A stretch of DNA of 64,000 bases, from the NCBI RefSeq assembly GCF_001904725.1, contig NZ_MRCE01000033.1, positions 1 through 64,000 of the forward strand, read 5' to 3'. Shown here in pieces: positions 54,610 to 63,530 of the stretch. The notes below the pieces were generated by a model. The model was not told where the DNA came from. It saw only the letters and a program-made list of their open reading frames with translations, and did no database searches. Position 1 is the first letter of the stretch. Every line of letters starts with the position of its first letter. Made by a program: the position numbers and the translations under genes. This DNA is from Phormidium ambiguum IAM M-71. Lineage in GTDB: Bacteria; Cyanobacteriota; Cyanobacteriia; Cyanobacteriales; Aerosakkonemataceae.

Positions 54610-55092
54610 ATGACTATTATTAGATGGAGTCCTTTTAGTGAAGTTGAAACTCTCCGCCGTCAATTTGATAGAATATTTGACGACTTTGCTGGACTTACCA
54701 CTACAGAAAATACTATTTGGAAGCCAGCAGTTGAACTGCAAGATAACGGTGATAACTTGTCATTAAAAGCTGAACTTCCGGGAGTAGAAGCCAAAGATTT
54801 AGACATTAGTGTTCTGCGCGATGCAGTTGTGATTCGTGGCGAACATCGCTACGAAAACAAAAGTGAAACCAAAGGTTTCTTCCATTCTGAATTCCGCTAT
54901 GGCAAATTTGAAAGAGTAGTTGGATTGCCTGTAGCTGTACAAAATGACAAAGTAAAAGCTGATTTCGCCAACGGTATTCTTACCATCACTTTGCCAAAGG
55001 TAGAAGAAGCGAAAAATCGTGTTTTCAAAGTGAATTTGGCTGCTAACGAAGATACAACTGACACTGAAACAAATACTGCTGAAACCAAATAA
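54610..55092 (+). CDS. hspA: Small heat-shock protein (Hsp20/alpha-crystallin)
   Basis: A 160-residue HspA-type chaperone. The start (MTIIRWSPFSEVETLRRQFDRIFDDF) is the class A cyanobacterial one. The alpha-crystallin domain (about 38-145) includes KAELPGVEAKDLDISV, GEHRYENK, SEFRYGKFERVVGLP and NGILTITLPK. The tail is Thr/Glu-rich. It binds unfolding proteins and membranes under heat and oxidative stress. It has a strong terminator and its own long upstream region, so it is monocistronic. Confidence 0.94.
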   Translation: MTIIRWSPFSEVETLRRQFDRIFDDFAGLTTTENTIWKPAVELQDNGDNLSLKAELPGVEAKDLDISVLRDAVVIRGEHRYENKSETKGFFHSEFRYGKFERVVGLPVAVQNDKVKADFANGILTITLPKVEEAKNRVFKVNLAANEDTTDTETNTAETK

Positions 55093-59728: not shown

Positions 59729-60637
59729 ATGCAAACATTATTTACTCTCTTTAGTAAAGAACGCGGCGAACTGGAAACAGAGATTGATAAGGCAACCAGC
59801 ATGAAACAAGTTGTTCAGCTGGTGCAAACCAAAATTGATAGTTTGGAAAAAAATTACATTGGCGAACTTAGTGTTTCTCAAGTACGTTTGGTAAAGTTTT
59901 TTCTGGATACGCTACGTCAGTCTATTGGCACTCTTTCGACTGCTGATGAAGCAACTTTGATTCAGCAAAATATTGAGCAAATTATCGATCGCACTAAAAA
60001 ATCATCACCCAATAAACTATTACTAAAAGTGCTACAAATACCCATAGGAATTGGGATTTTCACTTCTTTATTTTCCTTAATTGATGATACTCCAGGTGTG
60101 TGGATGCCAATTTTGCTGGTAACGGTGCTTGCAGGTTTGGAAGTGGCGATACAGTTTGATAAAAGCAGTAAACAAGATAATGTTGATTTAAGCCAATCTT
60201 TGGCAGCTTTACAACCAAGTATTCAGGTAGATAGCAAGTTTTTCTTGGATAATTTGGCCGATATTCTGAGTACGATCGATCGCGCAGTCGCCCAAGTTTC
60301 CGTCAACAATCAACCCTCTCCTACTGGTGGAATCCAAGAAATGCCAGAAATGTTAGATTTCTTACAAAAACTTTGGGGTGCATCCTTTTTAGGTAATCCT
60401 TATATGGCGCTAGAAATTAGTAAAATGGTGCCACAAATTTTGATGGATCAGGGAATTTATGTGCAGAATTATAAACTAAACGATCCGCAAAGTCCGCGAG
60501 AATACTTTGACTTTGAACCAAGTATCGATCGCAATTCCAAAGAATACGTCACCTTAACCCCCGCTTTGTTAAAAGGCGATCGATTACTTCGCAGAGGTAG
60601 AGTCATCGAACCAGTAAACAAAACAGCAGAAAGTTAG
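59729..60637 (+). CDS. Unknown membrane protein paired with Hsp70-like gene
   Basis: A protein of about 302 residues that I do not recognise. A helical N-terminus (1-95, including LSVSQVRLVKFFLDTLRQSIGTL) precedes two TM helices (about 106-125 and 130-148), then a cytoplasmic helical region and an end with YFDFEPSIDRNSKEYVTLTPALLKGDRLLRRGRV-type sequence. The ATG at 59729 is preferred to TTG at 59717. The Hsp70-like gene starts 24 bases later, so the two are likely an operon and could form a membrane complex. Confidence 0.72.
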   Translation: MQTLFTLFSKERGELETEIDKATSMKQVVQLVQTKIDSLEKNYIGELSVSQVRLVKFFLDTLRQSIGTLSTADEATLIQQNIEQIIDRTKKSSPNKLLLKVLQIPIGIGIFTSLFSLIDDTPGVWMPILLVTVLAGLEVAIQFDKSSKQDNVDLSQSLAALQPSIQVDSKFFLDNLADILSTIDRAVAQVSVNNQPSPTGGIQEMPEMLDFLQKLWGASFLGNPYMALEISKMVPQILMDQGIYVQNYKLNDPQSPREYFDFEPSIDRNSKEYVTLTPALLKGDRLLRRGRVIEPVNKTAES

Positions 60638-60661
60638 ATTTTTTAAAGGTTTTTTACTCAA

Positions 60662-62590
60662 ATGAATACACAAGTGACAGAAACAATTGGATTTGATTTA
60701 GGACATGGCGAAACAGCCTTAGCTAAGGCTAAAGTAGACAGCATCGAAACTCCAGATATGCTGGAAGTTAATAACAAGAAAATTCAAATAACCGCCATCG
60801 GTTGGCATCCAGAATTAGGCGTTTTGGTGGGAGATCAAGCCTTAATTCAAGCTGGTGTCGATCGCTTACAAATTGGCTTCAAAGAAAAACCCAACAACTC
60901 GCCTAACTATCGCAAAACCATGCGAAGTTTCGTCGAAGCATATTACAATTTGTTGAAAGAAAGCAAACAAATTGAAGGCGGAGTAAACAGCCAATTTTAC
61001 ATCGGTTGTCCTTCAGGTTGGTCGCCAACTGAACGCCAAGAATACCAAATTTTACTAAAAGAATCAGGGATACCTTTAATCTCAGTTGTTCCTGAATCTC
61101 GCGCCGCTTTCATGCAAGCCAAAGAAGGCGGAAAATTGGGATTTAATGAACTGAAATCAACAGTTTTAATTGTCGATATTGGTTCATCAACTACAGACTT
61201 TACCCTGGTTAAAAGCTTACATGAAATGCCTTTAGATTTTGGACAAAATACTTTAGGCGCATCCTTGATCGATCGAGCAATTTTAGCCAGAACTTTAGCC
61301 GAACATTCAGAAGGAGAATTCTTAAAAGAAGTCTTTGAAGAATATCCTCATCACAGGTTTCGCTGTGAAATTCAATGTCGAAAAGTCAAAGAAGATTACT
61401 TTTCCAACGAACAGTTATATGCTAGTTCTGGCGCTTTCGCTAGAGGTTTTGAATTCATCACTCCTCAAATTCACTTTATCCCCCAAGTGAATAAAGAAAT
61501 TATGGAAGAAATCATCAATCAACCTTTGCCAGAATTGAATAATAAAAGTTGGGCGCAAGCTTTTTGGGAAGCAGTAAAAGAAGCGAAAGAAGAGTTAGCA
61601 ACTCAAGGGATTATTCCGAAAGTTGTGTTGATGACTGGTGGCGCATCGCGGATGAAATTTACTCGTGATATTTGCGCGGAAATTTTCCCCGAACCTGACA
61701 CAAATGTTCGCCCAGATCCCGAACCAGAAAGATGTATTGCGCTGGGTTTATCCCGTGTGGGAAGATGGGATTTACGCGCCGCTGGATTTAAAGAAGAACT
61801 CAACAAATTATGTGAATCACCAACACTTAAAGAGTTGATTTCTAAACATATTCCTGATTTAATTACTTTGTTAAATCAACCTCTGGCTGATGGATTAATT
61901 GAAAATGCAGTTAAACCAGTTTTAAAAGATTGGCAAAGTAACAAAATTCGCACTTTGGCAGATCTGCAAGTGGAAATGGAAAAACGGGCGGAACAATGGT
62001 TAAAAAGCGATCGCGCCCAGCAAATCATCAACAGTCAATGTGTCACTTGGTTTAATCGCAAAATTCAACCCGACTTAGCCACAGAAACCGATCCCATTTG
62101 TCAAAGATATCAAATCTCTAAAAGCAGTTTACGCTTTGAAGAAGGAATCGATCCAGCAATAGTTAATCCAAACCTTAACTTAGGTGACGATATCTTAGCA
62201 GTGGTAGTCAGTTTTATCATCAACTTAATTATTGCTGGAGGTACGATCGGCAGTCTGCTAACTTTAATCTTAACCGGACACTTTGTTTTACCCATTCTAC
62301 TAGTTTATGGTGCAGCAGTTTTAGGCGAAGGAGTGCGGTTAAATCGGGAAAGATTGGAAGAAATTCTCAGGACAAAATTAGATATTCCTGGTTGGATTCG
62401 TTTCTTAGCAGTTGGTGAAAAAAAGATCGACCAAATGTGTAAGGAAATGAAACCAGATTTATCCGAAAACTTGCGAAAGAAAATGTTGGAAAATCAAAGT
62501 GCTTTTGACGATTTGATTAACAAAGTTGTGCAACAGTTGAAGAAAGCTTTGTATGCCAAAGCAGAAGAAGCAGTGATTTTGATTCAATAA
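60662..62590 (+). CDS. Membrane-anchored Hsp70/actin-like ATPase
   Basis: A 642-residue protein. The N-terminal 370 residues form an actin/Hsp70-like ATPase: phosphate-1 FDLGHGETAL (about 9-18), phosphate-2 LIVDIGSSTTDF with Asp172, and adenosine motif LMTGGASRMKF (from 325). Instead of the DnaK substrate domain there is a helical linker, then a two-helix hydrophobic segment (about 512-556) and a helical cytoplasmic tail. Length and domain order do not match DnaK or ParM. It is the second gene of a pair with a membrane protein and is followed by a 34-bp palindromic terminator. Role unknown. Confidence 0.85.
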   Translation: MNTQVTETIGFDLGHGETALAKAKVDSIETPDMLEVNNKKIQITAIGWHPELGVLVGDQALIQAGVDRLQIGFKEKPNNSPNYRKTMRSFVEAYYNLLKESKQIEGGVNSQFYIGCPSGWSPTERQEYQILLKESGIPLISVVPESRAAFMQAKEGGKLGFNELKSTVLIVDIGSSTTDFTLVKSLHEMPLDFGQNTLGASLIDRAILARTLAEHSEGEFLKEVFEEYPHHRFRCEIQCRKVKEDYFSNEQLYASSGAFARGFEFITPQIHFIPQVNKEIMEEIINQPLPELNNKSWAQAFWEAVKEAKEELATQGIIPKVVLMTGGASRMKFTRDICAEIFPEPDTNVRPDPEPERCIALGLSRVGRWDLRAAGFKEELNKLCESPTLKELISKHIPDLITLLNQPLADGLIENAVKPVLKDWQSNKIRTLADLQVEMEKRAEQWLKSDRAQQIINSQCVTWFNRKIQPDLATETDPICQRYQISKSSLRFEEGIDPAIVNPNLNLGDDILAVVVSFIINLIIAGGTIGSLLTLILTGHFVLPILLVYGAAVLGEGVRLNRERLEEILRTKLDIPGWIRFLAVGEKKIDQMCKEMKPDLSENLRKKMLENQSAFDDLINKVVQQLKKALYAKAEEAVILIQ

Positions 62591-62602: not shown

Positions 62603-62639
62603 AAAGTAGAGACGTTGTATACAACGTCTCTACTTTTTT
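62603..62639 (+). terminator. 34-bp perfect palindrome terminator
   Basis: AAAGTAGAGACGTTGTA (62603-62619) is followed at once by its exact complement (62620-62636), with a further TTT. It lies 12 bases after the Hsp70-like stop. The GTAGAGACGTTGTA sequence is a familiar dispersed palindrome in cyanobacteria. Confidence 0.85.
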
Positions 62640-62708: not shown

Positions 62709-63113
62709 TTACAAAAAGAGCGCAGGTGACACATGGAAAAACTTTCCTAGTGCTTTAGCTTGATTCTTACTAATACTTCTTTTGCCATTAATCACTTCTG
62801 AAGTGATGCCCTTAGAGCCAAAAACTTCTATCAAGTCCTTTTGTTTTAGATCTTTGGCTAGCATCAATTCATTCAATATCTCATGAGGTGTTGCCGTTTT
62901 TAGTTGATAATGTTTATCTTCATATTGCTCAATGAGGGTTACTAGCAAATCAAACAATTCGGCTTGCTCATCTGTCAGTTCTTCACCTAAATCCATGAGC
63001 TTTTCTACTTCTTTAACAAGGCGTTTATGCTCATCTTCTGTATGAATAACTCTTGGCAAAGTTTCAGCTAATAGTCTTGTGTACTCTTCCTTATTTATTG
63101 TGCTTGTCATCAA
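62709..63113 (-). CDS. higA: HigA-type antitoxin
   Basis: A 134-residue antitoxin with an N-terminal helical region (EYTRLLAETLPRVIHTEDEHKRLVKEVEKLM) and a C-terminal HTH (about 75-130: PHEILNELMLAKDLKQKDLIEVFGSKGITSEVINGKRSISKNQAKALGKFF-type sequence). It belongs to the HigA family that partners HigB mRNA interferases. It should neutralise HigB and repress the operon. It is separated from higB by 129 bases that contain two hairpins. Confidence 0.88.
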   Translation of the reverse strand: MMTSTINKEEYTRLLAETLPRVIHTEDEHKRLVKEVEKLMDLGEELTDEQAELFDLLVTLIEQYEDKHYQLKTATPHEILNELMLAKDLKQKDLIEVFGSKGITSEVINGKRSISKNQAKALGKFFHVSPALFL

Positions 63114-63242
63114 AAGTTACCCCCTAGAAGTAGTACTTAATCTCTTGACGGTAGGGACACCGTGTTGTTGTGTCCCTACGCGGCTATAGGAACTAAGTTT
63201 GTTTCAACAAACTATTGAGATGATGAGTACCGCAATTTTTGT
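63114..63242. repeat. Paired hairpins between higB and higA
   Basis: GTAGGGACAC (63151-63160) pairs with GTGTCCCTAC (63170-63179), and AGTTTGTT (63196-63203) pairs with AACAAACT (63206-63213). The first is a well-known style of cyanobacterial dispersed palindrome. Their position in a normally tight toxin-antitoxin operon suggests insertion. Confidence 0.75.
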
Positions 63243-63530
63243 TCATTTCTTCCATTTTCCTTCGTCATACTCACTATGGGTCAATATATCTGTAATAAGA
63301 ATAGTTTTTAACTTATAGTTAATTTTGGTAATAAGCCTATATTTATTGCCTCCTATATTGAAAACCGTGTACCCTTCTACTGGGTCGGCATGAGGATAGA
63401 CTTGTCTTACTTCCATAATATGTTTCCATTCTGCTTCCTCAGCAACCTGACTCCATGAATCCAGAGAACTTTCAGCATCGGGGTGAATTGTACTAAATTC
63501 AACCAGTTTGTCAAGGCCAATGACACGCAT
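63243..63530 (-). CDS. higB: HigB-type mRNA interferase toxin
   Basis: A 95-residue RelE-superfamily toxin of the HigB (PF09907-type) family: MRVIGLDKLVEF, DAESSLDSWSQVAEEAEWKHIMEVRQVYPHAD, TVFNIGGNKYRLITKINYKLKTILITDILTHSEYD. It cleaves ribosome-bound mRNA. It lies upstream of higA, the usual HigBA order. Strong family match along its length. Confidence 0.92.
   Translation of the reverse strand: MRVIGLDKLVEFSTIHPDAESSLDSWSQVAEEAEWKHIMEVRQVYPHADPVEGYTVFNIGGNKYRLITKINYKLKTILITDILTHSEYDEGKWKK

Follow-up and report, generated by a model that had tools for sequence, protein, structure and literature searches.

What does an ATPase with the fold of an Hsp70 do when a putative membrane hairpin takes the place of its substrate-binding domain, and what is the role of the second membrane protein that accompanies it? 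This question is raised by two co-directional genes in Phormidium ambiguum IAM M-71 (assembly GCF_001904725.1; Cyanobacteriota; Cyanobacteriia; order Cyanobacteriales, family Aerosakkonemataceae in GTDB), of which we analysed positions 1 to 64,000 of the forward strand of contig NZ_MRCE01000033.1, a stretch of 64,000 nucleotides hereafter called the window. Gene A lies upstream (59,729-60,637, +; open reading frame list, alignment of 35 sequences) and encodes a membrane partner of 302 residues; gene B follows (60,662-62,590, +) and encodes an Hsp70-type ATPase of 642 residues with a membrane hairpin. The start of A was placed at ATG 59,729 because its first methionine is shared by all 35 aligned sequences, the window's own included, and the gap of 24 bases between the genes (60,638-60,661, +) is consistent with a single predicted transcript. 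We propose, with a probability of about one half, that A and B together act as a switch, tethered to the membrane and driven by ATP, in which A would control the nucleotide cycle of B. The pair itself is real, strongly conserved and present in many filamentous cyanobacteria.

The fold of B is the first line of evidence. B was modelled with AlphaFold2 from an alignment of 37 sequences (mean predicted local distance difference test score, pLDDT, 73.6; predicted template modelling score 0.55), with low-confidence parts at residues 1-70 (block pLDDT 42-58) and 511-580 (37-59). Foldseek matched this model to DnaK-type structures with a best E of 1.3e-10. With VIA-align the top entry was an Hsp110 (Z 26.2, root-mean-square deviation 3.2, 329 residues), entries for DnaK, BiP and Ssz1 followed at most about one Z unit behind, and the 50 listed Hsp70-type entries scored Z 24.1-26.2 over about 330 residues, covering residues 5-371 or so of B. 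Furthermore, hhalign gave a probability of 96.5% for the B family against the three DnaKs of its own genome. All three methods thus assign B an actin/Hsp70 nucleotide-binding fold, and VIA-align and hhalign place the Hsp70 nucleotide-binding domain at residues 5-371 (60,674-61,774, +). The residues D12, K74, E145, D172, T177 and G326 are identical in all 49 aligned B sequences, an alignment that includes the window and omits some B members, e.g. those of loci L214, L232 and L234. In the hhalign output, residues of the phosphate and adenosine motifs of B match D, E, D and T of DnaK; K74 was placed by eye as the Hsp70 lysine, and the profile alignment gives it no position. The first-pass annotation had called B an actin/Hsp70-fold ATPase with intact nucleotide motifs, and the fold searches together with the invariant residues bear this out. 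In Pfam, the best match of the window's B was MreB_Mbl, below threshold at 26.7 bits against a cut-off of 27, and HSP70 did not appear among the matches at E up to 1. Eight distant B members were tested against the HSP70 cut-off: L118, L212 and L233 exceeded it, and five (L116, L208, L213, L231 and L232) failed to reach it. In L215, the stretch over the cut-off is an extra N-terminal Hsp70 domain and not part of B.

Behind the nucleotide-binding domain, the model of B departs from a canonical Hsp70. In the model no strand is found past residue 351 and only helices past residue 371, and thus a substrate-binding beta-sandwich is missing from it; the helical C-terminal region comprises residues 372-642 (61,775-62,587, +), with a block pLDDT of 68-92 over residues 371-510. 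Hydrophobic segments, defined as a mean hydropathy of at least 1.4 over 19 residues, lie at residues 511-529 and 535-553 and together make up the predicted membrane hairpin (residues 511-553; 62,192-62,320, +). At least one such segment is present in 37 of 37 B orthologues (one in 13, two in 11, three in 13). The earlier proposal of a two-helix membrane segment near residues 512-556 in place of a substrate domain agrees with both the hydropathy and the all-helical C-terminus of the model. The three canonical DnaKs of this genome, DnaK3 of cyanobacteria being likewise a canonical DnaK, are located apart from B. In comparison with Hsp70/DnaK, B therefore shares the nucleotide-binding fold and the catalytic residues, but it lacks a modelled substrate-binding beta domain and has a membrane hairpin and a dedicated membrane partner instead.

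This partner, A, consists of a helical N-terminus (residues 1-86), hydrophobic segments at about 97-115 and 123-141, helices within residues 169-239 and a strongly conserved C-terminal tail of about 55 residues, which reads YFDFEPSIDRNSKEYVTLTPALLKGDRLLRRGRVIEP in the window. The helices are taken from a low-confidence AlphaFold2 model (mean pLDDT 51.5). Two or more hydrophobic segments were found in 62 of 62 A orthologues, and A reached no cut-off in Pfam or NCBIfam. Its description at first pass as an unrecognised protein with two transmembrane segments, 24 bases from the ATPase, hence stands, as both open reading frames and the gap are present in the sequence. Pfam-type scans, which included distant members, found no GTPase domain in A or B.

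The second line of evidence is the linkage of the two genes. Neighbouring genes were compared at 81 loci, i.e. the window locus and the best 80 of 88 relatives; in 79 of them A is found 5' of B. The exceptions are L017, with only 223 bases 5' of B, and L012, where another gene is upstream; in L015 the distance between A and B is 2.8 kb. The neighbour family next in frequency after A occurs at 25 of the 81 loci. In a survey of 388 genomes of the order, A was found in 75, B in 77, both in 74 and either in 78 (Fisher P 8e-75 for co-occurrence, kinship ignored). Here, A was counted at E up to 1e-20 with one best A place per genome; genomes with only a weaker A match were excluded (G231, G586, G596, G606, G608, G628, G652), and the one-place rule hides second B copies without A (L233, L234, L235). 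Both genes are on one contig in 72 of the 74 genomes, with gaps of 12-1327 bases between model ends, and are split between contigs in G536, with both genes at contig ends, and in G634, with a C-terminal piece of A beside B. The linkage persists between B sequences that are only about 28% alike and also with inverted order, B then A, in L214 and L215. The co-occurrence search that the first-pass annotation had suggested as a check therefore returned a conserved linkage, well above what chance would give.

In a sample of the whole phylum, B was detected in 14 of 386 genomes (12 of 362 with a wider B profile), all of them in the window's order. The first A profile detected A in 13 of these 14, and a wider one added the remaining genome, G111. 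A further A match in G156 (E 1.5e-4) was read as chance, since it is not a B genome and the genes of its locus, L119, look unrelated by eye. Within the window's family, both genes were found in 10 of 10 genomes searched, and in single copy in all ten. The ratio of non-synonymous to synonymous substitution rates (dN/dS) against the nearest relative is 0.050 for A and 0.053 for B, and 0.066-0.111 for the other usable pairs, with one A comparison saturated; judged from these sequence comparisons, A and B are under purifying selection. Thus, the behaviour of the window's version is that of a core gene. It belongs to a well-separated clade of 37 rows with a support of 99/99, and several of the distant rows are long-branched. 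Over 35 loci the distances of A and of B are correlated (r = 0.89), a correlation that could arise from common descent alone.

Taken together, the fold and conserved active site of B, the hydrophobic hairpins, the close linkage and the purifying selection form the computed basis of the proposed switch. From these we infer ATP hydrolysis, the topology, complex formation, a nucleotide-exchange role of A and a membrane process that is served. In the proposed mechanism, a helical region that carries a membrane hairpin would have taken the place of the substrate-binding domain of B; therefore, the ATP cycle would move a membrane-embedded helical arm and not a peptide clamp. A would be anchored by a hairpin of its own, which probably leaves both its ends in the cytosol, and the two hairpins would keep A and B at one membrane with their soluble parts on the same side. 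A would sense or set the nucleotide cycle of B, perhaps through nucleotide exchange by its tail, which resembles the GrpE beta domain and would be the best candidate contact for the nucleotide-binding domain of B.

Several results weigh against this mechanism. The model of A is poor (mean pLDDT 51.5), and that of B has low confidence over residues 1-70 (pLDDT 42-58). The anchor is not universal, since the distant B of L118 lacks any hydrophobic segment. A occurs without B in G568, where it lies close to a contig end, and B without an intact A was found in six copies, L231-L235 and a broken one in G652. L233, L234 and L235 are in genomes that hold the pair elsewhere, and the genomes with B only are G504, G594 and G652, the last with a broken B and a weak A match that is a fragment beside it. 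Because such B copies exist, we describe A and B as closely linked and not as obligate partners. The resemblance of the tail to GrpE is also open to objection. In hhalign, 63 C-terminal columns of A give a co-linear match to the C-terminal domains of GrpE and secondary cyanobacterial GrpE-like proteins; the best pair reached P = 0.0026, and the reversed control 0.053. When 865 proteins were searched with a GrpE/GrpE-like profile, the first 14 ranks went to A members, with a distant A at rank 9, at a best E of only 0.051. However, the hhalign probability of A against GrpE is at most 11%, and larger GrpE profiles gave P values of 0.0055, 0.0054 and 0.0073 against 0.013, 0.011 and 0.021 for the reversed controls, which thus were about two- to threefold of the true P. 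Among 51 gene families compared, A came second and third with unrelated families ahead; a shorter profile placed the first A only at rank 6, and the longer one placed other distant A members at ranks 56, 187 and 238. Pfam GrpE was not listed for the window's A at E up to 10 nor for eight distant A members, and for 35 A members it was absent among the matches listed (25 of 35 Pfam families, E up to 10; any GrpE match among the remaining 10 would belong to one member at E > 0.15). Likewise, profile searches of the PDB with A returned no GrpE. Since Pfam, the PDB profiles and hhalign are all without significance, A was not accepted as a member of the GrpE family and the resemblance was retained as a hint: GrpE homology of A is a lead to which we give about one chance in three. 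Apart from the co-linearity of roughly the last 60 residues, A differs from GrpE in its hydrophobic hairpin, which is not seen by eye in the GrpE of the same genome (L120). Secondary GrpE-like proteins do occur in cyanobacteria, the genome of the window has one at C46, and in L162 and L168 the gene of such a protein adjoins, by eye, an Hsp70-like gene.

The settings of distant relatives bring up one of the two main alternatives to the switch. A HerA-like ATPase is encoded 3' of B in L116, L213 and L218 (by Pfam), in L212, L234 and L235 (by BLAST) and in L115 and L118 (by eye). This B-HerA order thus recurs in eight loci, with A in front except in L234 and L235, and looks like an undescribed multi-gene system. 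In L116, the pair is further accompanied by a metallopeptidase, EcsC/DUF697-like proteins and a ThiF-type enzyme, and metallopeptidases similar to that of L116 are found in L213 and L234. In L233 (3166-5592, -), B is fused to a TIR domain (PF13676, E 1.9e-20) in a genome, G654, that also has an ordinary pair; a second TIR-domain gene lies about 2 kb from this fusion. In L215, a canonical Hsp70 domain precedes B without a change of frame, and in L214 (1-9532) the end of an Hsp70 domain, recognised by eye, is in frame with B and followed by A and, 2.5 kb on, by two dynamin-family GTPases. Tandem forms of B occur in L115 and L218, and in L232 a B with an added N-terminal region and no A has a WD40 protein gene nearby. 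The TIR/Hsp70 fusions and the HerA-like and dynamin neighbours therefore suggest a membrane-tethered, ATP-driven switch that is re-usable. The search for mobile carriers retrieved a B relative in one of 72,556 plasmid records, a copy flanked by two phage-integrase genes; a viral origin was rejected on the basis of viral contigs, the phage collection lying outside this search, as 55 stretches of these contigs matched a pattern and none encoded a B relative. A HerA-like protein as a third component in the window's genome was also rejected: partial matches to the L116 protein were found in C54 (33% identity, residues 522-893, E 7.9e-49) and C53 (E 3.6e-6), but the neighbourhood in C54 has neither A nor B (the only B score was 0.063 with filters off).

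The same settings could instead point to a conflict or defence module, with B as a membrane-bound sensor or switch that triggers an effector or membrane damage upon infection or stress. We regard this as unlikely for the pair as a whole. In its favour are the TIR fusion, the HerA-like, EcsC-like, metallopeptidase and ThiF-type company of L116, the recurrence of HerA-like genes, the dynamins behind L214 and the plasmid copy between integrases. In addition, HSP70-containing conflict systems exist in bacteria: excerpts of the paper by Kaur et al. (2020, PMC7159879) describe NTP-dependent multi-gene systems with HSP70 and GrpE, some with a second HSP70 'sans its peptide-binding domain', and in this respect they resemble the present loci; in the same excerpts they are predominantly actinobacterial and firmicute and have DO-GTPase and GAP1 genes of their own. 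On the other hand, the TIR-fused B has no adjoining A, no neighbour gene besides A is common to more than 25 of the 81 loci, and neither of the window's two proteins was matched by a PADLOC model at E up to 0.01. Among 25 A members, LeoB models matched three (best 1.1e-5), LeoBC two (1.5e-5) and SAVED4--SAVED_TM one (9.5e-7), while the window's A had no match to LeoB, LeoBC or SAVED_TM below 0.02. These matches were not accepted as homology of A. The LeoB match of the A in L116 (residues 94-215) includes a hydrophobic, glycine-rich segment to which glycine-zipper models match as well. A few LeoB/LeoBC matches and the dynamin genes of L214 are thus what the pair has in common with bacterial dynamins and LeoBC; it differs in that A and B have no GTPase domain and that the window's A does not match LeoB. 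The window's version, single-copy in all 10 family genomes, slowly evolving and under purifying selection (dN/dS 0.05, in the 37-row clade), does not behave as is typical of a defence gene. Some distant branches perhaps have a conflict-related role; for the branch of the window these settings do not show one. No characterised family pair was matched in Pfam, NCBIfam, PADLOC or the literature searched, in line with the first reading that the pair has no known counterpart: no description was found in open-licence papers, including the parts of PMC7159879, PMC8195603 and PMC7281324 that were available, and the pair is apparently undescribed.

Alternatively, the pair might be a membrane-bound chaperone or biogenesis factor for membrane complexes, e.g. 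of the thylakoid, in which the hairpin region replaces the substrate domain. The Hsp70 fold of B and its core-gene behaviour in the window's family would fit, and a precedent exists in DnaK3, which, according to the portion of PMC7281324 at hand, binds thylakoid membranes and is involved in the maintenance of thylakoid protein complexes. DnaK3 and B are therefore alike as Hsp70-type proteins acting, or predicted to act, at a membrane (PMC7281324, same portion); B differs in carrying its own hairpin and partner, and the three canonical DnaKs of the genome are separate from it. The model of B is without a substrate-binding beta domain, canonical DnaKs are encoded three times elsewhere in the genome, and B occurs in only 12 of 362 genomes of the phylum sample, a spread that does not indicate a general thylakoid need. 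We consider a chaperone role improbable, and together with the conflict module it is the main rival of the switch. A cytoskeletal role, in which B would polymerise like MreB or ParM at the membrane with A as adaptor, is weaker still and has little to recommend it: the near-threshold MreB_Mbl match of the window's B, the Mbl-type chains that match its fold at Foldseek ranks 22 and 42 and the tandem forms of B are set against Hsp70 chains at the top of both fold rankings (Foldseek and VIA-align), distant B members over the Pfam HSP70 cut-off, and the long helical C-terminus of B, which MreB does not resemble.

Returning to the switch, a broader and more tentative proposal can be made for the family. 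Possibly, cyanobacteria have an undescribed family of membrane-tethered, Hsp70-driven switches, in which B is the constant core and A its almost regular companion; patchy relatives are wired to TIR, HerA-like, EcsC-like, ThiF-type or dynamin components and might act in conflict or membrane remodelling. In the clade of the window the bare pair would now be core, with A as a membrane-bound, GrpE-like regulator and B pulling on its hairpin rather than on a client peptide.

Downstream of B, a 28-base palindrome (GTAGAGACGTTGTATACAACGTCTCTAC; 62,606-62,633) had been taken for a strong terminator that closes the pair. A terminator dedicated to this operon is not supported, as the genome contains 43 copies at up to two mismatches, 11 of them exact, against no copies of the reversed control pattern. 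The palindrome is a dispersed genomic repeat, which may or may not serve as a transcription end point. A cation-efflux transporter gene is the upstream neighbour of the pair in the window and lies outside the stretch covered by the comparison of the 81 loci. Directly downstream, a HigB-type toxin gene (E 5.4e-29) and a companion gene are encoded at 62,709-63,530 (-), and these are also near A and B at two other loci, L020 and L061. At a distance of 4.6 kb upstream there is also a gene for an HSP20 small heat-shock protein (54,610-55,092, E 4.2e-21), whose position near the pair is probably coincidental.

A substrate clamp is what usually defines an Hsp70 machine. If the proposed mechanism is true, the Hsp70 cycle would be re-usable as a membrane switch, in which the engine is kept and the clamp is swapped for an anchor and a dedicated partner. 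The pair consists of two clean genes that are testable in culturable filamentous cyanobacteria, and the distant relatives, with their TIR, HerA-like and dynamin settings, offer a direct way to test for a link to bacterial immunity or membrane repair.

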